A program made the translations under genes and the position numbers. The notes beneath the pieces are model-generated. The model was not told the DNA's origin and ran no database searches. It worked only from the letters and a program-made list of their open reading frames with translations. A stretch of 64,000 bases of DNA from Anaerolineales bacterium (GTDB taxonomy: Bacteria; Chloroflexota; Anaerolineae; Anaerolineales; UBA4823), in contig PQAL01000036.1 in assembly GCA_003105035.1 (NCBI GenBank), forward strand, positions 1-64,000, read 5' to 3'. This document shows, piece after piece, positions 9,495 through 18,637 of this stretch. How positions within the stretch are numbered: the stretch's first letter is position 1; every line of letters starts with the position of its first letter.

Positions 9495-9568
9495 TATGAA
9501 ATTTGGACTGGCAATTTGATTGAAATATATTCATGGACAGAAAGTAATCAACCAGGAGAGGCTTAAAA

Positions 9569-10834
9569 ATGGACAATGAAATCCGACAGCTGCTGAGAAT
9601 CGACGGCTCACGTCTAGATACACTCAATTCGATACTCTTGGACCCTGATATGCGGGTAGTGAATGATTTTCTCGAGGTGGTCGAAAAGTATGGAACCCCC
9701 GAGGAGATCAATCGAAAAGCTGAACAAGCCGGTAAGTTTGAAAACTTACTTGAGAAAGTTGCACAGATCAAACCTGAGTATCTCGAAGACCTGGATTGGC
9801 TCCAAAAACAACGCGACAGGTCAGCGTTTATCTCGATTGCCGAGTACCGGAAAAAGGTACTTGGTCCAAAAACAAAAGACATCCATTTTAAAGATGACTT
9901 TGCGGTAACTCTGGAAGTCAGCGCAAGCCAGTATTTCCCATGGATAAGGGAAATTGCCCAAAAATCGATCACCGAACAGCTGCTCATGCCAGGGAGGTTT
10001 ATCAAGGTTCGAAAGATGAAGGAGCAGGAATTGGATGGCGACTTACCTGCCATTGCAGCCGCCATGGACATCATTGGTGCTTCCTACGTAGAAACGTTGG
10101 ATACCAAGGGCACCGACGGTTCCAATGTGCATTTGGGTGGCCCGGCGACGATCACTGGCTATTTCGGTGGCGTCGGCCAGCCCAATCACTACCCATTGAA
10201 ATGGCTGGATGAGTTTCTATATTACTATACGAATTACGGCGTACGTCAGGTTCTTAACATTAACCCAGGTACGGTATTGCTGGGATACTTCTTATACCGC
10301 ATCGGGGTTAACATCGAATTCAAGATATCGGTCTTCATGGGGAACGATAATCCATATGCAGGCTTGTGGACGCTAATCGGGGCAAAATTATTCTCACGTG
10401 ATGATGGTACCTCCCCATTGATCGGTTTTAATTGGAGCAATTCAGTTAATAACGAAACCCTCGAAATCACCGCCCAGTTCAGGAAGGATTTCGGGTTTGA
10501 AGATGTTGTCAGGTTTGAGCACCATATCACGGAAACCTGGAAAAGTATCGTTCGCCAGCCATACAATCGGCGTGACGAGCTGGTCCAGCTCGCTGATCAT
10601 GTGGCCAATATCTCCGCCAAACACGAAGGTGGCGACCCGGAGGTTGACCAGGCACGCCCGCATCCATCCGATATCTTGGATTATTTCCGTGATAAGAGCG
10701 AAGTCATCGAATCGGGTGACTGGGAAAATCTAAAGACCAATTTCATTGATAAATTTGATGCTGCGAATCGTACGGCCTATGCCCTAACTCAGCACGGTTT
10801 ATCCTTTGTAGCCGCCCAGAACCTTCATAAATAA
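9569..10834 (+). CDS. Unrecognised 421-aa protein paired with amino-acid dehydrogenase
   Basis: I cannot assign this protein to a family. It is soluble, without signal peptide or membrane helices. A helical N-terminal third (residues 1-105) precedes a region with many Gly-rich and aromatic turns, such as HLGGPATITGYFGGVGQPNHYP near residue 190, NINPGTVLLGYFLYRIG near 230 and FMGNDNPYAGLW near 257. These look like the strand ends of an alpha/beta barrel, which is a guess. A GGAGAGG Shine-Dalgarno precedes the ATG. It ends 8 bp before the CBS-containing dehydrogenase gene, so the two are almost certainly co-translated and functionally linked. Confidence 0.75.
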   Translation: MDNEIRQLLRIDGSRLDTLNSILLDPDMRVVNDFLEVVEKYGTPEEINRKAEQAGKFENLLEKVAQIKPEYLEDLDWLQKQRDRSAFISIAEYRKKVLGPKTKDIHFKDDFAVTLEVSASQYFPWIREIAQKSITEQLLMPGRFIKVRKMKEQELDGDLPAIAAAMDIIGASYVETLDTKGTDGSNVHLGGPATITGYFGGVGQPNHYPLKWLDEFLYYYTNYGVRQVLNINPGTVLLGYFLYRIGVNIEFKISVFMGNDNPYAGLWTLIGAKLFSRDDGTSPLIGFNWSNSVNNETLEITAQFRKDFGFEDVVRFEHHITETWKSIVRQPYNRRDELVQLADHVANISAKHEGGDPEVDQARPHPSDILDYFRDKSEVIESGDWENLKTNFIDKFDAANRTAYALTQHGLSFVAAQNLHK

Positions 10835-10842
10835 GGAGACCC

Positions 10843-12714
10843 ATGATTCCTAAGCAAATGGAGGCTTTTCTTAAAGCCCGTATTCCAGAGCAAACCTGGA
10901 AGAGCCGACTGATCTGTGAAGACGGTAAATGTTTCATCGATTTTGGTCCACTGGATGTCGACCGCCTAGGCAGGCTTGGCATCGAGGTGGATAGCCTGGG
11001 GCCTAAAGTACTGGCATGTGTGTGGGATGATGAAACTCCACTGGAAGTGGGTGGTTACCTGGTCGTCGATAACCTGGCTATGGGCCGGCCATCGATGGGT
11101 GGAATCCGTATGCTACCCGACCTGACCCCTAGCACCATCCACAATTTAGCCAGGGGTATGACGTTAAAAAATGCCGCGGCCGACCTTCCCTATGGGGGTG
11201 GAAAAGCCGGCATCATTGCTGACCCTGACATGCCGATCGAGATCCACCAGGAAATTGTCAGGCGATTCGCAGGGTTGATCTACCGCTATCGAGATATTTA
11301 TCTGCCAGGGCCGGATGTGGGCACCAACGATGCCGACATGAAAATCATCGCCACAATGAATGGGCTGGATAATGCCCTTTCAAAGCCTGTTGAGATGGGC
11401 GGAAATCGTATCGATCAGCTCGGCGCAGCGGGTGGAGGTCTGGCTATCGCCCTTGAAGCATTGCTCGAGGAGCTACCTCGCTTACGCAACCTGCCGCAAT
11501 TCGCCAATAAAACCATCCCCGATCGAAGTGATATCACCATTATGTTGCAGGGTTTTGGAGCTGTAGGGGCCCACGGAGCACGCTACATCAAACAGCGCAT
11601 CCCTGAAGCGCATATTGTCGGTATCAGCGACATCTCAGGATATTTATACGACTTGAATGGATTACCCATCGAGCGCTTATTCAATGATTGGAAGGAAAAA
11701 GGAGTCGTCACCAAGGGGTATTACCAAGAAAAGCTGAGCAATCTTCCGCTTGGAAAATTCACTACCAAATTCTCCAGTTTTCCTGAGGACTTATTGCGGG
11801 AATCTGCTTTTTGTTTCATCCCCGCTGCTCCGGTGTCGAACTACCTTGATATCAACGATGTATCCAAACCATCCATGACGACTGACCGGATGGGTACCTG
11901 GGGCTTGATCATCGAAGGTGCCAACACGTATTCACCCGATCCAGATCGCAAATATGCCCGCTCACTGATGGAACGGGAAGTCTATCGTAACAAAGGTGTG
12001 CTAATTGTCACTGATTACCTGGTTAACTCTGGCGGTGTCATCTTTGCTTCCCAGGAAACACTAATCAAGACACCTAACCATCTACGCATCCCTGATCAGC
12101 TGCTGGGTGATTTCGAAGGGGTGAATAGCTGGCTTGAACAGCATGCTCAAGACTTTGGAGAGCTAGCTGAAAAAAGACTCAAAGCAGCAGAAACAGCCCG
12201 CGATGAGGTTATCAGGTGCAATATGCACGAGCTGGTTGATTTATTAATCTTGGATCCGGATCTCCTGCCTTGCGAAGCTGCTGAAAGCATCAGTATCAGG
12301 CGCATCACTTCCAAGGAGAAGGATCGAAAAGCATCCGATATCATGGCATCCATCATCACGATCCCTTCATCAGCCACCCTGCAGGAAGCGGCCAAATTAC
12401 TGGTCGAAACTGGTTGCCCAATTCTGGCGGTCGTGAATCCACGTGATGAATTGATCGGAGTATTATCCAATTGGGATATCACCAGGGCAGCTTCACGCGG
12501 CTCGATAGAAATGACGCTTCTCGAACAGGTCATGACCAAACAAGTGATCACTGCCAGGCCCGATGATGCCATTCTGGACCTGGTTCGCAAGCTTGAGTAT
12601 CACGAGATATCTGCCATGCCCATCGTGGATGGGAAAAAAGTCCTGGGCATGGTCAGTACCGACATCCTGGCGAGCCGCTCGCTCTACCGTTTGCTACAAT
12701 CCCAGCAGGATTGA
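10843..12714 (+). CDS. Glu/Leu/Phe/Val-type dehydrogenase with C-terminal CBS pair
   Basis: This 623-aa protein joins a complete amino-acid dehydrogenase (about residues 30-470) to two CBS motifs (about 496-555 and 559-615). The dehydrogenase part shows TLKNAAADLPYGGGKAGI with catalytic Lys121, the DVGTNDADM segment and a Rossmann QGFGAVG motif near residue 243. The family catalyses reversible NAD(P)-dependent oxidative deamination of L-amino acids. In glutamate dehydrogenases the lysine of the KGGLR motif contacts the substrate side-chain carboxylate; here the motif reads SMGGIRM (Met85), as in Leu/Val/Phe enzymes. The substrate may therefore be a hydrophobic amino acid. CBS pairs usually sense adenylates, suggesting energy control. 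AAGGAG precedes the ATG; a terminator follows the stop. Confidence 0.88.
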   Translation: MIPKQMEAFLKARIPEQTWKSRLICEDGKCFIDFGPLDVDRLGRLGIEVDSLGPKVLACVWDDETPLEVGGYLVVDNLAMGRPSMGGIRMLPDLTPSTIHNLARGMTLKNAAADLPYGGGKAGIIADPDMPIEIHQEIVRRFAGLIYRYRDIYLPGPDVGTNDADMKIIATMNGLDNALSKPVEMGGNRIDQLGAAGGGLAIALEALLEELPRLRNLPQFANKTIPDRSDITIMLQGFGAVGAHGARYIKQRIPEAHIVGISDISGYLYDLNGLPIERLFNDWKEKGVVTKGYYQEKLSNLPLGKFTTKFSSFPEDLLRESAFCFIPAAPVSNYLDINDVSKPSMTTDRMGTWGLIIEGANTYSPDPDRKYARSLMEREVYRNKGVLIVTDYLVNSGGVIFASQETLIKTPNHLRIPDQLLGDFEGVNSWLEQHAQDFGELAEKRLKAAETARDEVIRCNMHELVDLLILDPDLLPCEAAESISIRRITSKEKDRKASDIMASIITIPSSATLQEAAKLLVETGCPILAVVNPRDELIGVLSNWDITRAASRGSIEMTLLEQVMTKQVITARPDDAILDLVRKLEYHEISAMPIVDGKKVLGMVSTDILASRSLYRLLQSQQD

Positions 12715-12774: not shown

Positions 12775-12802
12775 TTGACAACTAGTACATTTGTTCTATA
12801 AT
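12775..12802 (+). promoter_or_regulatory. Consensus promoter for a leaderless radical SAM gene
   Basis: TTGACA at 12775-12780 and TATAAT at 12797-12802 both match the sigma-70 consensus, with a 16-bp spacer. The predicted transcript start coincides with the in-frame GTG at 12809. Confidence 0.8.
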
Positions 12803-12808
12803 ATATAC

Positions 12809-13951
12809 GTGGAGACTTATGAGAAATTAAAACTGGTTAGCGCACAGATGCACCTGGAATCTGCTGAAGACACCAGCTGTATCCAGGTCCCTAGTCGCAA
12901 GCAGGATAAAATCTCCGTCAGTGATGCGGTCTTGCCGAGTGGTAAGCGGATCTCATTGTTGAAGTCCCAGCTCTCCACAGTGTGTGAGCGGGACTGTAAC
13001 TACTGCCCCTTCCGCTCTGGGCGCGATTTTCAGCGTGCATCCTTCCAACCAGAGGAATTCGCAAAAATATTCTTATCCCTCTATCAGGCGCATATCGCTG
13101 AAGGGATATTCCTGAGCTCGGGAATATTCAATAATGGATCTTTCACACAGGACTATCTGCTGGATACAGCGGATATCCTGCGGAACAAACTGCATTTTAA
13201 GGGTTATGTCCACCTAAAAATCATGCCCGGGGCTGAATATGCCCAGGTAGAACGCGCCATGCAGCTGGCTGACCGGGTATCCATAAATCTCGAAGCACCG
13301 ACCACAGCTACACTACAAAAGCTTGCTCCAGGTAAACGATTCACCGAAGAATTAGTCCAACCGTTAAAATGGATCCAACAAATCCGGCAGACACAATCAC
13401 CCTATCATGGATGGGATCATCGCTGGCCTTCTTCAGTCACCCAGTTCGTAGTCAGTGCAGTCGGAGAGACCGACGTAGAGCTCTTAGCAACCACGGAATA
13501 CCTCTATAGCCAGCTCAAATTAAAGCGTACGTACTACTCAACATTCAATCCTATCCCCGATACACCGCTTGAAAATGTGCCGCCTGGCTCCCCACATCGT
13601 GAATTCCGCTTGTATGAAGCTTCTTTCTTGCTGCGCGATTATGGATTCGGCCTTGAAGACCTTCCATTTGATCGAAATGGGCACTTGCCCCTAGATATCG
13701 ACCCAAAGACCGCCTGGGCCAAAGAAAACCTGGTGTCGACCCCCGTTGAGATCAATGGGGCAGAAAAATATGAGCTGTTGCGTATACCAGGCATTGGACC
13801 GAAAACCGCAGACGCAATCCTGACCGCGCGTAGGATGGGTAAAATAACCAACCCCGAAATGCTACCCGCCTTCGGTGTAAATATGAAGAAGGCGGCTCAA
13901 TACATTTCAGTTAATGGCAAAAACCCTGCCAGACAAATCTCTTTCCTATAA
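12809..13951 (+). CDS. Radical SAM protein of putative DNA modification/repair family
   Basis: Start chosen at the GTG at 12809, because the TTG at 12791, also in frame, lies inside the promoter spacer; an ATG at 12848 is the alternative. The 380-aa protein has the radical SAM CxxxCxxC motif (CERDCNYCPF, near residues 58-67). At the C-terminus is a helix-hairpin-helix (LLRIPGIGPKTADAILTARR) that binds DNA non-specifically. This layout matches the family annotated as putative DNA modification/repair radical SAM protein (TIGR03916), which in other genomes often pairs with a uracil-DNA-glycosylase-like protein. No such partner lies next to it. The reaction is unknown. Confidence 0.8.
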   Translation: METYEKLKLVSAQMHLESAEDTSCIQVPSRKQDKISVSDAVLPSGKRISLLKSQLSTVCERDCNYCPFRSGRDFQRASFQPEEFAKIFLSLYQAHIAEGIFLSSGIFNNGSFTQDYLLDTADILRNKLHFKGYVHLKIMPGAEYAQVERAMQLADRVSINLEAPTTATLQKLAPGKRFTEELVQPLKWIQQIRQTQSPYHGWDHRWPSSVTQFVVSAVGETDVELLATTEYLYSQLKLKRTYYSTFNPIPDTPLENVPPGSPHREFRLYEASFLLRDYGFGLEDLPFDRNGHLPLDIDPKTAWAKENLVSTPVEINGAEKYELLRIPGIGPKTADAILTARRMGKITNPEMLPAFGVNMKKAAQYISVNGKNPARQISFL

Positions 13952-14002: not shown

Positions 14003-16036
14003 ATGTTACGCATTGGTATCGATATTGGCGGCACTTTCACTGATTTCATCGTGTACGAGCCCGAGAGTGGAAATATCCGTACGTTTAAACTCCCGTCTGA
14101 TCCCTCCGACCCGGCCAAATCTGTCCTTGATGGATTAAAACAAATTACTTCACATGGCGCTTTGCATGTTATTCATGGCTCAACCGTGGCAACCAATGCC
14201 CTACTGGAAGGAAAAGGTGCTCGAACAGCCCTGATCACCACCCAGGGTTTCAATGACATCCTACAGATCGGCCGGCAAAACCGCCCCAGCTTATACGATT
14301 GGAATGTTCCTCCGACTTCACCGCTTGTACCTTCAGACTTGAGATTTGAAGTTAGGGAACGAGTTGATCATCTTGGTAATGTTCTCATCCCCTTCGACCC
14401 AACCCAGCTGGAAGCAATCGCCCAACAGCTATCCCAATCACACATTGAGTCAGTCGCCATTTGCCTGTTATTCAGCTTTTTACATCCTCAGCATGAGCAA
14501 ATGATAGTAGAAAAACTCAGCGGGTATGCTTTTCCCGTTTATTTGTCAAGTGATATATTGCCAGAGTATCGGGAATATGAACGAATGAGCACCACGGTAA
14601 TTAATGCATATGTCTCTCCAATTCTTGATAGGTATCTCTCCAAATTAGCGTCTTCATTGGGCGATGTACACGTTGATATCATGCAATCCAATGGGGGGAT
14701 GATCAGCCTGCCAGAAGCACGCAGAAATGGTGCCCGGTGTATCCTATCTGGCCCAGCCGGGGGGATTTCAGGTGCAATGAACATCACTGAGAGTATCGTG
14801 TCACGTGATGCCTCGCAGTCAAGTCAGATTACACCAAAAGTGATCACCTTTGACATGGGTGGGACATCCACAGACGTATCGTTGATTAATGGTCATCCCT
14901 CCTTCACAACCGAAGCAGTCGTGGGAGGTTATCCGATTCGATTACCTCTGCTTGACATCCACACGATTGGTGCCGGTGGAGGCTCGATCGCCTATATTGA
15001 TTCAGGCGGTTCTCTACGGGTGGGTCCGCAAAGTACAGGTGCGATTCCTGGCCCAGCGTGTTATGGTATGGGGGATTCCCCCACGGTCACCGATGCAAAC
15101 TTAGTTTTAGGTCGCCTGCTCCCCGAATATTTTCTGGGTGGAAAAATGCACATAGACGCTGGCCGATCATGGCTCGCCATGGAAAAACTGGGTGTTCGCA
15201 TGCAGCGGACAGCAATTCAAGCTGCCAGGGGTGTCATTGAGGTGGTTAACGCCCAGATGGAGAGAGCATTGCGGGTCATCTCTATTGAACGTGGCCACGA
15301 TCCGCGCGATTTCTTCCTTTTTTCTTTTGGCGGAGCTGGCGGGTTACATGCTGTCGCGTTAGCCCGTCAGATGGATATCCCTAAGGTGGTTATCTCCCGG
15401 TACGCTTCTACATTATCAGCCTATGGCATGCTCGCCTCTGACGTGGTCAAGGATTACGTGAAGACGATAATGCTGCCTGGCACGACCGATATGTCCATAT
15501 TGGATGATCAATTCGAGCCGTTAATTGATAAAGGGATATCAGAAATGGCGAGAGAAGGAATAGCAGCGAACGAAATTGAGATCCAACCTAGTTTGGATGT
15601 CCGCTATGTGGGGCAATCCTACGAGCTAAATATAGCGTATTCCAAGGACTTCCTGGCTGCGTTCACCCAAGCCCACGATAGCGCGTATGGCTATTCTTAT
15701 ACTGGCAAAGAAACTGAAATTGTAAATCTGCGCCTGTGTGCTATCGGAAAAGTCCCCCGCATCCAGTTACCCAAACGCCCAACTAGGTTCCCATCCGAGG
15801 TACCTGCCCCGCTACGATCCATGCAGGTCGAGTTATCCAAAGGTTCAGAATTGATTCCTGTATATCAATATGATGATCTATTCCCTGGAACGGCACTATC
15901 TGGTCCTGCATTAATCGTTTCAGCAGATACAACCATATTCATGGATAATAATGATAAGCTGGAAGTCGATGAATTTGATAATCTTATCATTGATGTTTTT
16001 TTCAAACCCAAGCTATCCAACCAATTACTCAAGTGA
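14003..16036 (+). CDS. hyuA: Hydantoinase/oxoprolinase subunit A
   Basis: The 677-aa protein matches the HyuA family in length and layout. The N-terminal hydantoinase A domain has the phosphate-binding motif GIDIGGTFTDF at residues 5-15, and a second actin-like ATP motif FDMGGTSTDVSL lies near residue 285. The family performs ATP-dependent hydrolysis of cyclic imides (5-oxoproline, N-methylhydantoin) or, in related members, carboxylation of ketones, together with subunit B. Subunit B is two genes downstream at 17012, with a PRPP-synthetase-like gene between. The substrate cannot be told from sequence. The LctP-like permease at the operon end suggests an organic acid is imported or exported. 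Confidence 0.9.
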   Translation: MLRIGIDIGGTFTDFIVYEPESGNIRTFKLPSDPSDPAKSVLDGLKQITSHGALHVIHGSTVATNALLEGKGARTALITTQGFNDILQIGRQNRPSLYDWNVPPTSPLVPSDLRFEVRERVDHLGNVLIPFDPTQLEAIAQQLSQSHIESVAICLLFSFLHPQHEQMIVEKLSGYAFPVYLSSDILPEYREYERMSTTVINAYVSPILDRYLSKLASSLGDVHVDIMQSNGGMISLPEARRNGARCILSGPAGGISGAMNITESIVSRDASQSSQITPKVITFDMGGTSTDVSLINGHPSFTTEAVVGGYPIRLPLLDIHTIGAGGGSIAYIDSGGSLRVGPQSTGAIPGPACYGMGDSPTVTDANLVLGRLLPEYFLGGKMHIDAGRSWLAMEKLGVRMQRTAIQAARGVIEVVNAQMERALRVISIERGHDPRDFFLFSFGGAGGLHAVALARQMDIPKVVISRYASTLSAYGMLASDVVKDYVKTIMLPGTTDMSILDDQFEPLIDKGISEMAREGIAANEIEIQPSLDVRYVGQSYELNIAYSKDFLAAFTQAHDSAYGYSYTGKETEIVNLRLCAIGKVPRIQLPKRPTRFPSEVPAPLRSMQVELSKGSELIPVYQYDDLFPGTALSGPALIVSADTTIFMDNNDKLEVDEFDNLIIDVFFKPKLSNQLLK

Positions 16037-16061
16037 TTAATAGTTATAAGGTAAACCGATC

Positions 16062-17012
16062 ATGTCATCCCATCCACTACGAATATTCGCGGGTTCATCG
16101 CACCAGGCATTAGCTCACGAAGTCACCGATCTCCTGGGTGTTCCACTGGGTAACTCAACCACCCGAATCTTTCCCGATTCAGAGATATTTGTAAATATTG
16201 ATGAGGTCGTCAGGGACCAGGACATATTTTTCATCCAGACTTGTTCCATGCCGGTCAATGATCGCCTCATGGAACTTTTGTTATACCTGGATGCTTTTCG
16301 CCGGGCGAGTGCCCACTCCATCAGCGTGGTGATCCCTTATTTCCCGTATGCCCGCCAGGATCGTATGTCCCATGGGCGAGAAGCCATCAGCGCCAGGGTC
16401 GTGGCGAATTTACTTGAAAAACAAGGCGCTTCAAGGGTAATTTTCTTTGACATCCACAACCCAGCCATTCAAGGTTTCTTCAACATCCCGGTCGATCCGT
16501 TGTCAGCCATATCTCTCCTGGCGAATTACTACCGTAAACCCGAATACCGCAATTCTGTAATCGTCAGCCCGGATGTTGGGCGGGCCAGCCTGGCAGGTAA
16601 ATATGCAGGGTTGCTTGATCTACCGCTGGTCATCATGCATAAACGCAGATCCAGCCCCTTGGAAGTTAAAACCACGCACATCGTTGGCGATATCACCGGC
16701 CGCAGGCCAATCATCGTGGATGACCTGATCGCTGGCGGTAGCGTTCTCAAGCAATTGGATGACCTTTACCAGCATGGAGCCCAGGGAAAGGCTTGCCTGG
16801 CAATCACTCACCCGGTGCTTCTGCCAACTGCCCTTAAAAGACTGGACGAAGATGATCGGATCGAGAAACTAGTGGTCACCAATACCATACCAGTCCCTAA
16901 AGAAAAACTCCATCCGAAGCTGGAGGTAATTTCCATTGCGCCTCTGCTCGCAGAGATTATTAATCGTATTTATGGTGGTATCAGCATTTCAGAGAAAATG
17001 ATCTTGTCATAG
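16062..17012 (+). CDS. prs: Ribose-phosphate pyrophosphokinase-like protein
   Basis: This 316-aa protein aligns along its whole length with PRPP synthetase. It has [10 protein letters not shown] (family FSDGE), [20 protein letters not shown], a [11 protein letters not shown] segment matching the family DLHxxQIQGFF, and flexible-loop residues in HKRRSSPLE. The PRPP-binding loop normally reads DDxIDTGGT; here it is DDLIAGGSV, apparently one residue shorter and lacking the acidic residue after DDxI. The family makes PRPP from ribose-5-P and ATP. The unusual loop and its position between hyuA and hyuB raise the chance that it is a specialised paralogue. Its stop overlaps the next start by one base. 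Confidence 0.85.
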
Positions 17013-18637
17013 TGCCTATGCGCAATTCACAGAATTATTATCCGTCTGATCCGATCAGGCTCGAAATATATAAATACTTCTTCGCTTCCATTGCCGAGGA
17101 GATGGGCGCGGTGCTGCGTAAAGCCAGTTTTTCTCCTAATATCAAAGAACGGCGTGATTTTTCCTGCGCAGTTTTCGATCAGCATGGCAATATGATCGCC
17201 CAGGCAGCCCATATCCCTGTCCATCTGGGTTCCATGCCCATGTCGGTCCAATCTGCCGTCCAAAAATTCTCCGCTTCAGGTGAGAGGCTTAGCCCAGGCG
17301 ACACGATCATCGTGAATGATCCCTTCCTTGGGGGAACCCATTTGCCAGATATCACCCTGGTCAGTCCTTTATTTTTTGATACCGGCATTACAGCGGATGA
17401 CATGAAACCTGTCGCCTATGTTGCCAATCGCGCCCACCATGCTGATATCGGTGGTATTTCGCCGGGTTCGATGCCGATCGCGCGCGAGATTTTCCAGGAA
17501 GGGTTGATCATCCCTCCGGTAAAGTTTGTCACAGGTGGCACGCTTAACCAGGGCATACTTGACTTGATACTCGCTAATGTACGTACCCCCGAAGAGCGTA
17601 GCGGTGACCTAAAAGCCCAGATTGGCGCGAATCAGCGGGGTATCACCCGTTTGACTGATCTTATTCAACGCTACGGTCTGCAGGAAGTATCCCTGTACAT
17701 GCAGGAATTGCTAGACTATACCGAGCACATGACGCGCCGTCTGATTGCTGAAATCCCTGATGGGAAATACACGTTTTCTGATAATCTCGATGATAACGGG
17801 GTTACCGAGCAGAAAGTCCGCATCCAAGTTTCGATAAAAATTGAAGGAGAAAACGCAGAAGTCGACTTTACAGGTTCTGCTGAGCAACAGCCCGGCAGTA
17901 TCAACGCAGTGTACGCCATCACATTGTCAGCAGTCAACTACGTTTTCCGTTCCCTGATCGGCCTCGATGTCCCGAATAATAGTGGCTGCCTGGTACCTAT
18001 CAAGATCATCGCTCCACAAGGCACCGTCGTGAATGCCTTGCATCCTGCTCCAGTGGCAGGCGGTAACGTGGAGACGTCGCAACGCATCGTGGATGTGCTC
18101 CTTGGAGCCTTCGCCCAGGCATGCCCTGAGCGCATCCCTGCCGCCTCCCAAGGCACGATGAACAATGTGATGATCGGCGGATGGGATATTGAAAGGAAGC
18201 GATACTTCACCTATTACGAGACGATCGGCGGTGGAACGGGTGCCAGCCCACAGCAGGATGGTTTTTCGGCTGTCCATAGCCACATGACTAATACATTAAA
18301 CACTCCCATTGAAGCCCTGGAATATGCATATCCGCTTCAGGTCACACGTTATGCGATTCACAACACCAGCGGTGGAGAAGGGATCCATCGCGGGGGCGAT
18401 GGAATCATCCGTGAAATCAAGGTATTATGCGATGCACAGCTCACTCTGTTATCGGAGCGCCGCGTCACCCAACCGTATGGTCTCTCGGGTGGAGAACCAG
18501 GGCAAGCTGGAGAAAATCAGCTTATCCACGAGGGTCAAGTAACCCACCTACCCGGTAAAGGCAACTTTTATCTCTCAAAAGGTGATATTCTGAGTATTAG
18601 CACTCCGGGTGGTGGAGGCTTTGGACCTAAAAAATGA
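17012..18637 (+). CDS. hyuB: Hydantoinase/oxoprolinase subunit B
   Basis: The 541-aa protein is a full-length HyuB family member. It has a conserved N-terminal segment (IAEEMGAVLRKASFSPNIKERRDFSCAVFD), the metal-binding-like NDPFLGGTHLPDI and ANRAHHADIGGISPGSMP motifs near residues 105-160, and a Gly-rich end (STPGGGGFGPK). It forms the heteromeric enzyme with HyuA at 14003. The start is either the GTG at 17012, which overlaps the upstream stop, or the ATG at 17018; no Shine-Dalgarno is visible. Its stop overlaps the permease start by 4 bases (ATGA). Confidence 0.92.
   Translation: MPMRNSQNYYPSDPIRLEIYKYFFASIAEEMGAVLRKASFSPNIKERRDFSCAVFDQHGNMIAQAAHIPVHLGSMPMSVQSAVQKFSASGERLSPGDTIIVNDPFLGGTHLPDITLVSPLFFDTGITADDMKPVAYVANRAHHADIGGISPGSMPIAREIFQEGLIIPPVKFVTGGTLNQGILDLILANVRTPEERSGDLKAQIGANQRGITRLTDLIQRYGLQEVSLYMQELLDYTEHMTRRLIAEIPDGKYTFSDNLDDNGVTEQKVRIQVSIKIEGENAEVDFTGSAEQQPGSINAVYAITLSAVNYVFRSLIGLDVPNNSGCLVPIKIIAPQGTVVNALHPAPVAGGNVETSQRIVDVLLGAFAQACPERIPAASQGTMNNVMIGGWDIERKRYFTYYETIGGGTGASPQQDGFSAVHSHMTNTLNTPIEALEYAYPLQVTRYAIHNTSGGEGIHRGGDGIIREIKVLCDAQLTLLSERRVTQPYGLSGGEPGQAGENQLIHEGQVTHLPGKGNFYLSKGDILSISTPGGGGFGPKK

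Follow-up and report, generated by a model that had tools for sequence, protein, structure and literature searches.

An unnamed family of predicted TIM-barrel proteins in Anaerolineales with a PanB-like partner that has no tie to pantothenate synthesis

What is the role of a protein that is strongly conserved, has hundreds of genomic relatives and is covered by no family model? This question is raised by a 421-residue product, here called X421, encoded on contig PQAL01000036.1 of an Anaerolineales bacterium (assembly GCA_003105035.1), the first 64,000 nucleotides of which form the window analyzed here (Table 1). A first-pass annotation had described X421 as an unrecognised, barrel-like protein ending 8 bp before a dehydrogenase gene, and had proposed that it may be an amino-acid fermentation enzyme working with that dehydrogenase. 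The spacing was correct, as X421 ends at 10834 and the dehydrogenase ORF begins at 10843, so that 8 bases separate the two. The ORF was confirmed to be a real protein-coding gene by a pattern search of GTDB genome contigs, in which 350 of 375 candidate stretches encoded a relative.

Table 1 Features of the X421 locus (coordinates refer to the window).
Feature	Position	Strand	Remarks
Shine-Dalgarno-like AGGAGAGG	9554..9561	+	7 nt before the X421 ATG; read by eye
X421 ORF	9569..10834	+	ATG start, 421 aa; predicted helical N-terminal domain (residues 1-105) and TIM barrel (residues 106-421)
Gly-rich loops after barrel strand 3 (X421 residues 179-205)	10103..10183	+	From the model and the 64-sequence alignment
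E317-H318-H319-I320, end of strand 7	10517..10528	+	Invariant; candidate metal/acid-base site (inferred role)
K351-H352-E353-G354-G355, end of strand 8	10619..10633	+	351-354 invariant; candidate metal/acid-base site (inferred role)
Shine-Dalgarno-like AAGGAG for the dehydrogenase	10833..10838	+	By-eye reading; overlaps the stop codon of X421
ELFV (Glu/Leu/Phe/Val) amino-acid dehydrogenase with two C-terminal CBS domains	10843..12714	+	623 aa; Pfam; accessory partner
Sigma-70 consensus TTGACA-16-TATAAT	12775..12802	+	12/12; before the radical-SAM gene, 3' of the dehydrogenase; consensus match only

Sequence searches gave X421 no name. Neither Pfam nor NCBIfam returned a family for the window protein at E≤1, and 55 relatives searched one by one against Pfam produced only scattered weak matches (best E 0.026). 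The PDB, searched by single sequence and by profile, held no meaningful sequence relative, PHROGs contributed only a family of no known role (E 0.059), and profile comparison with the PanB2, DapA-like and MetE-like neighbor families described below detected no relation (probability <1% in all three). The result named beforehand as speaking against an unrecognised protein, a confident hit to an established family, was found in none of Pfam, NCBIfam, the PDB or the 55 relatives. No description of the family or of its pairing with PanB2 was found in the open-access literature, an absence that is not proof.

The best 80 of the 350 relatives show 68-79% identity and derive nearly all from Anaerolineae and other Chloroflexota metagenome-assembled genomes (MAGs); a few of these 80 are labeled Spirochaetes, Cyanobacteria or Eubacteriales, MAG labels that may reflect binning errors. 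X421 was present in 12 of 201 genomes of the phylum and in 62 of 151 genomes of the order (68 copies), and its cyanobacterial spread amounted to 1 of 292 genomes, which was the query's own. A phage search found no match, and plasmids yielded one record, from Polaromonas sp. P1-6 (55% identical, annotated as 'hypothetical protein'), a possible culturable host for X421 genetics. The X421 alignment comprised 55 sequences from 81 loci with a copy, leaving out incomplete, odd-start and stop-bearing copies, and 47 sequences were used in a separate comparison. To assess invariance, the Polaromonas row and 8 of 11 further divergent loci were added (L109, L110 and L112 failed the motif filter), and 89 columns were invariant over the resulting 64 sequences, divergent copies included.

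AlphaFold2 was used with the 55 sequences and modeled X421 (pLDDT 90.2, pTM 0.89) as helices to residue 104 followed by an eight-stranded barrel, with strands counted by eye from the DSSP list; the barrel modeled alone reached a pLDDT of 86. These models predict a (beta/alpha)8 TIM barrel, in agreement with the earlier 'barrel-like' reading, and X421 is an unnamed, new TIM-barrel family. The fold searches suggested alongside structure prediction in the first-pass annotation, run here against the PDB (full model and barrel alone) and a viral library (full model), returned only generic barrels. The top VIA-align row was a designed TIM barrel (Z 12.5 for the whole model and 13.5 for the barrel alone; rmsd 3.5-3.6 over 208-210 residues), with many unrelated barrels within 1-2 Z of it. 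The rows included 3-keto-5-aminohexanoate cleavage enzyme, transaldolase, MTHFR and glutamate mutase E, and families absent from these lists are not thereby excluded. With Foldseek, the best match to the full model was a class II fructose-bisphosphate aldolase (E 8e-4, TM 0.33), and class II aldolases made up most of the 30 rows at E≤0.001 for the barrel alone (best such row 5.5e-5, TM 0.43, rmsd about 8 Å); TM values were ≤0.46 throughout, i.e., weak fold matches. Because these matches are weak and unrelated barrels lie within 1-2 Z of the top row, the structure does not set the reaction class. A role as barrel subunit in a mutase of the cobalamin type was considered for X421, as glutamate mutase E (6h9e_B) stood high in the VIA list for the full model (Z 11.8, rmsd 4.2, 250 residues aligned, range 28-412). 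Against this, glutamate mutase E was tied with unrelated barrels and fell to rank 41 for the barrel alone (Z 11.3, rmsd 3.8, 221 aligned), X421 had no Pfam match at all, and no B12-binding small subunit was seen by eye in the neighbor lists, making a mutase subunit very improbable.

Conservation within the models suggests where a reaction could take place. Residues T179, G181, D183, G184, N186, H188, G200, G201, G203 and P205 are invariant in the 64 sequences, and the loops at residues 179-189 and 200-203, among the most conserved, were modeled with low confidence, so that they are probably ordered only with a ligand or metal. Together with E317-H318-H319 and K351-H352-E353, these loops suggest a candidate metal or ligand site.

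The dehydrogenase downstream carries ELFV N- and C-domains and CBS domains that all exceed the Pfam cut-offs, and reached no equivalog cut-off in NCBIfam. CBS domains have a role in control by adenosyl ligands, and the pair found here suggests such control of the dehydrogenase. Because a 12/12 sigma-70 consensus follows the dehydrogenase, X421 and the dehydrogenase may form a two-gene unit of their own, with the radical-SAM gene behind it likely a separate one. This radical-SAM/HhH protein (12791-13951) lies behind the perfect consensus and, as its called TTG start falls within the promoter match, probably starts further downstream. Beyond it (14003-18637), a ribose-phosphate-pyrophosphokinase-like gene (by eye) lies between genes for hydantoinase A and B, an order also found in the syntenic relative L001.

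Were X421 a dedicated fermentation enzyme whose main partner is this ELFV-CBS dehydrogenase, the two genes would be expected to travel together, and in one direction they do. Besides the 8-bp spacing, 14 of the 15 dehydrogenase-bearing genomes among the 151 of the order also have X421, and in each of these 14 the dehydrogenase gene follows X421 on the same strand, at up to about 530 bp in 13 and at 1.9 kb in the remaining one. In the other direction, only 14 of the 62 X421 genomes carry the dehydrogenase, compared with 60 of 62 for PanB2, and L001 has the order glmS-PanB2-X421-radical SAM without it. The dehydrogenase is therefore accessory to X421 and not an obligate partner, and a dedicated pairing with it is improbable. 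Of the earlier proposal, the adjacency stands for genomes in which both genes occur, where they are neighbors, and the link to amino acids is in keeping with neighbors that are mostly amino-acid enzymes; the dehydrogenase as obligate partner is not supported.

The main partner lies outside the window. X421 is paired near-obligately with a divergent paralogue of the vitamin-B5 enzyme PanB (ketopantoate hydroxymethyltransferase), here called PanB2, which was present at 52 or more loci in the neighborhood survey and at most loci directly precedes X421; 52 is an undercount because the ORF caller drops overlapping ORFs. Among the matches listed for the 151 genomes of the order, X421 was found in 62, PanB2 in 61 and both in 60 (Fisher p 1.5e-38, which overstates the association because related genomes are not independent). 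PanB2 was defined by rows 69-100% identical, the next rows being ≤52% and the count being split at this identity gap; all PanB2 counts are among the matches listed, and PanB2 fragments may be missed. For 57 of the 68 X421 copies, PanB2 precedes X421 on the same strand at a distance of ≤1 kb (11-667 bp between the genes). Exceptions in the order, again among the matches listed, were two genomes that have X421 and no PanB2 (G275 and G325) and one that has PanB2 and no X421 (G226). Outside the order, several genomes with X421 lack PanB2, which counts against a module. The window genome is one of few in which PanB2 lies away from X421, on contig C5, where it overlaps the following class I aminotransferase gene by 4 bases; an aminotransferase directly after PanB2 was found in this genome and two more. 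So close a match in presence and adjacency, near one-to-one, would also be produced if X421 were a non-catalytic subunit required by PanB2 (a pseudo-barrel or activator). We consider such a subunit unlikely, as the 89 invariant columns with dense polar residues at the barrel-strand ends resemble an active site, and as X421, in the absence of PanB2, adjoins other aldolase or PLP genes in three cyanobacterial MAGs and on the Polaromonas plasmid.

By profile, PanB2 appears to be an ordinary ketopantoate enzyme. The copy of the window genome (G000:C5) scored 324 bits with the Pantoate_transf profile (PF02548 cut-off 28.7) and 278.7 bits with the NCBI panB model TIGR00222 (cut-off 207.55), and was also above the cut-off of NF001452. 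The same genome has a separate canonical panB-panE-panC cluster (PanE assigned by eye, PanC also by search), to whose PanB it is 47% identical. Equivalents of E. coli D45, S46, D84, K112, E114, H136 and E181, which we take to be the catalytic residues of E. coli PanB, are conserved in 52-53 of 53 PanB2 sequences (one gap). The E. coli pocket residues I202, I212 and V214 are absent from all 53 sequences, which have Leu, Leu and Ile at positions 202, 212 and 214 and His at 209, compared with I/V/V and D in the canonical copy. E. coli PanB variants at I202, I212 and V214 are altered in their 2-oxo-acid range (PMC7610986).

Co-occurrence across the 151 genomes separated the two proteins. Canonical PanB occurred with PanC in 102 of 106 PanB genomes (107 genomes have PanC; p 2e-26). 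For PanB2, no tracking of PanC was found among the matches listed (47 of 61, p 0.2), canonical PanB was present alongside it in 47 of 61 PanB2 genomes, and 12 of the 14 genomes with PanB2 as the only PanB lack PanC. PanB2 thus shows no tie to pantothenate synthesis. These data bear on a further explanation, in which ketopantoate is formed or cleaved by PanB2 while the substrate of X421 is pantothenate or pantoate, X421 being, e.g., a hydrolase releasing beta-alanine. The scores above the NCBI panB cut-offs agree with it, as do a class III aminotransferase after one X421 copy, a PanE-like gene near one cyanobacterial copy, and a PanB of 47% identity adjoining X421 in one genome of another class (L092). 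Set against the independence from PanC, the coexisting canonical PanB and the pocket changed in 53 of 53 sequences, we give a pantothenate role little credence. The results point to PanB2 being mislabeled as panB in databases; since standard models give this label to the partner of X421, pantothenate synthesis would be inferred for genomes without PanC. Three genomes that are 97-99% complete (G281, G295 and G322) have PanB2 and X421 and neither canonical PanB nor PanC, so that an automatic pantothenate call from 'panB' would be wrong for them.

The remaining neighbors of X421 and PanB2 are mostly amino-acid genes, and each gene beyond PanB2 is varied and found at few loci. Homoserine dehydrogenase (HSD) precedes PanB2 in three g135 genomes (one genus), two of which have an aminotransferase behind it; these g135 genomes carry another HSD gene at a different place. 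A PanB2 route replacing HSD found no support, as HSD is present in 123 of the 151 genomes, with and without X421, and its presence does not separate X421 genomes from the others. A run of Lrp-PanB2-X421-class III aminotransferase-PurU (formyl-THF deformylase) was seen once (L110). A second X421 copy (L109) sits in the order ABC transporter (by eye)-Cys/Met lyase-RidA-X421-PALP-racemase-aminotransferase-MttB. With one copy scanned, tryptophanase-like genes were found at L034, L042 and L067, the last with a glycine C-acetyltransferase about 10 bases before X421, and, likewise from one copy, an L-piperidine-6-carboxylate-dehydrogenase-like ALDH at L035, L037, L038 and L062. X421 is preceded by a DapA-like (pyruvate-type) aldolase gene in two cyanobacterial MAGs; a DapA-like gene adjoins X421 on its upstream side at L047 and is close by at L036. 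On the Polaromonas sp. P1-6 plasmid (CP087967.1, L115:10134-18255), X421 has a divergent TyrR-like regulator on one side and SDR, OsmC, DsbA, Lrp and methionine-gamma-lyase-like genes on the other. Some adjoining genes (thiolase, CysRS, ATPases, ABC exporters/transporters) look unrelated and count against a module. A protein of ~346 aa occurs near X421 or the dehydrogenase in five loci (L027:7445-8482, L055:9160-10206, L028, L054 and L058). With one copy searched in each case, Pfam gave nothing at 1e-5 and NCBIfam nothing at 1e-20 for this protein; by eye we take it to be UroD/MetE-like, and it is possibly another unnamed family.

Overall, the pairing of X421 with PanB2 in anaerobic bacteria suggests a so far undescribed step in the breakdown of amino acids and in one-carbon metabolism. 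Our preferred reading, to which we assign an even chance, is that X421 is a TIM-barrel enzyme forming a two-enzyme module with PanB2 for hydroxymethyl/C1 transfer on an amino-acid-derived 2-oxo acid. An amino acid would be converted to its 2-oxo acid by the ELFV-CBS dehydrogenase, an aminotransferase or a PLP lyase, and PanB2 would move a hydroxymethyl group between this 2-oxo acid family and tetrahydrofolate. The direction would most likely be catabolic, yielding methylene-THF and a simpler 2-oxo acid, as suggested by PurU, a transporter and Lrp among the neighbors, each in few loci. X421 would then catalyze a neighboring lyase or isomerase step on the same hydroxy/oxo-acid pool, probably metal-dependent and using the invariant cluster of E317-H318-H319, K351-H352-E353 and H188. 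The operons with HSD and aminotransferase and the exchange of PanB2 for a DapA-like aldolase weakly favor 4-hydroxy-2-oxobutyrate (from homoserine) or a near relative as the substrate, a choice that is tentative. It is rather unlikely, though conceivable, that the pair is a natural and so far undescribed one-carbon module in which 4-hydroxy-2-oxo acids (e.g., homoserine-derived 4-hydroxy-2-oxobutyrate) donate hydroxymethyl groups to tetrahydrofolate, as a counterpart in nature to the engineered homoserine/HOB routes. X421 would then be the first known member of a new family of TIM-barrel enzymes and would prepare or consume the substrate.

If the two-enzyme module does transfer one-carbon units on 2-oxo acids derived from amino acids, amino-acid fermentation and C1 flow in uncultured Anaerolineae would have to be redrawn, and engineered one-carbon routes would gain a natural pair of enzymes. 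Pairing with PanB2 also makes a long-standing 'hypothetical protein' directly testable.

Comparison with known systems places the components of this locus at different distances from their relatives. The window dehydrogenase has both ELFV domains in common with ELFV dehydrogenases and differs from them in its two CBS domains and in reaching no NCBIfam equivalog cut-off. Class II (zinc) fructose-bisphosphate aldolases account for most barrel-only Foldseek rows and, like X421, have conserved His near the strand ends. The invariant H188, H318/H319 and H352 of X421 are candidate counterparts of their three-His zinc site, at low Foldseek TM values (0.39-0.46). As differences from these aldolases, X421 and its 55 relatives have no Pfam match to the aldolase family, the rmsd is mostly 7-10 Å, and there is an extra helical N-domain. 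The closest known relative of PanB2 is PanB (PF02548, TIGR00222), with 47% identity and all seven checked catalytic residues kept. PanB2 departs from it at positions 202/212/214/209 (changed in 53 of 53), in the lack of PanC co-occurrence, in the pairing with X421 and in its frequent placement by amino-acid genes. For the proposed chemistry, the closest parallel is the synthetic homoserine cycle of engineered E. coli, which combines an aldolase and an aminotransferase around 4-hydroxy-2-oxobutyrate/homoserine (PMC8224422). This cycle differs from the putative X421 module in being an engineered assimilation route without X421. The HSD-PanB2-aminotransferase operon, with 4-hydroxy-2-oxobutyrate as the inferred substrate, would encode a natural form of such a cycle.
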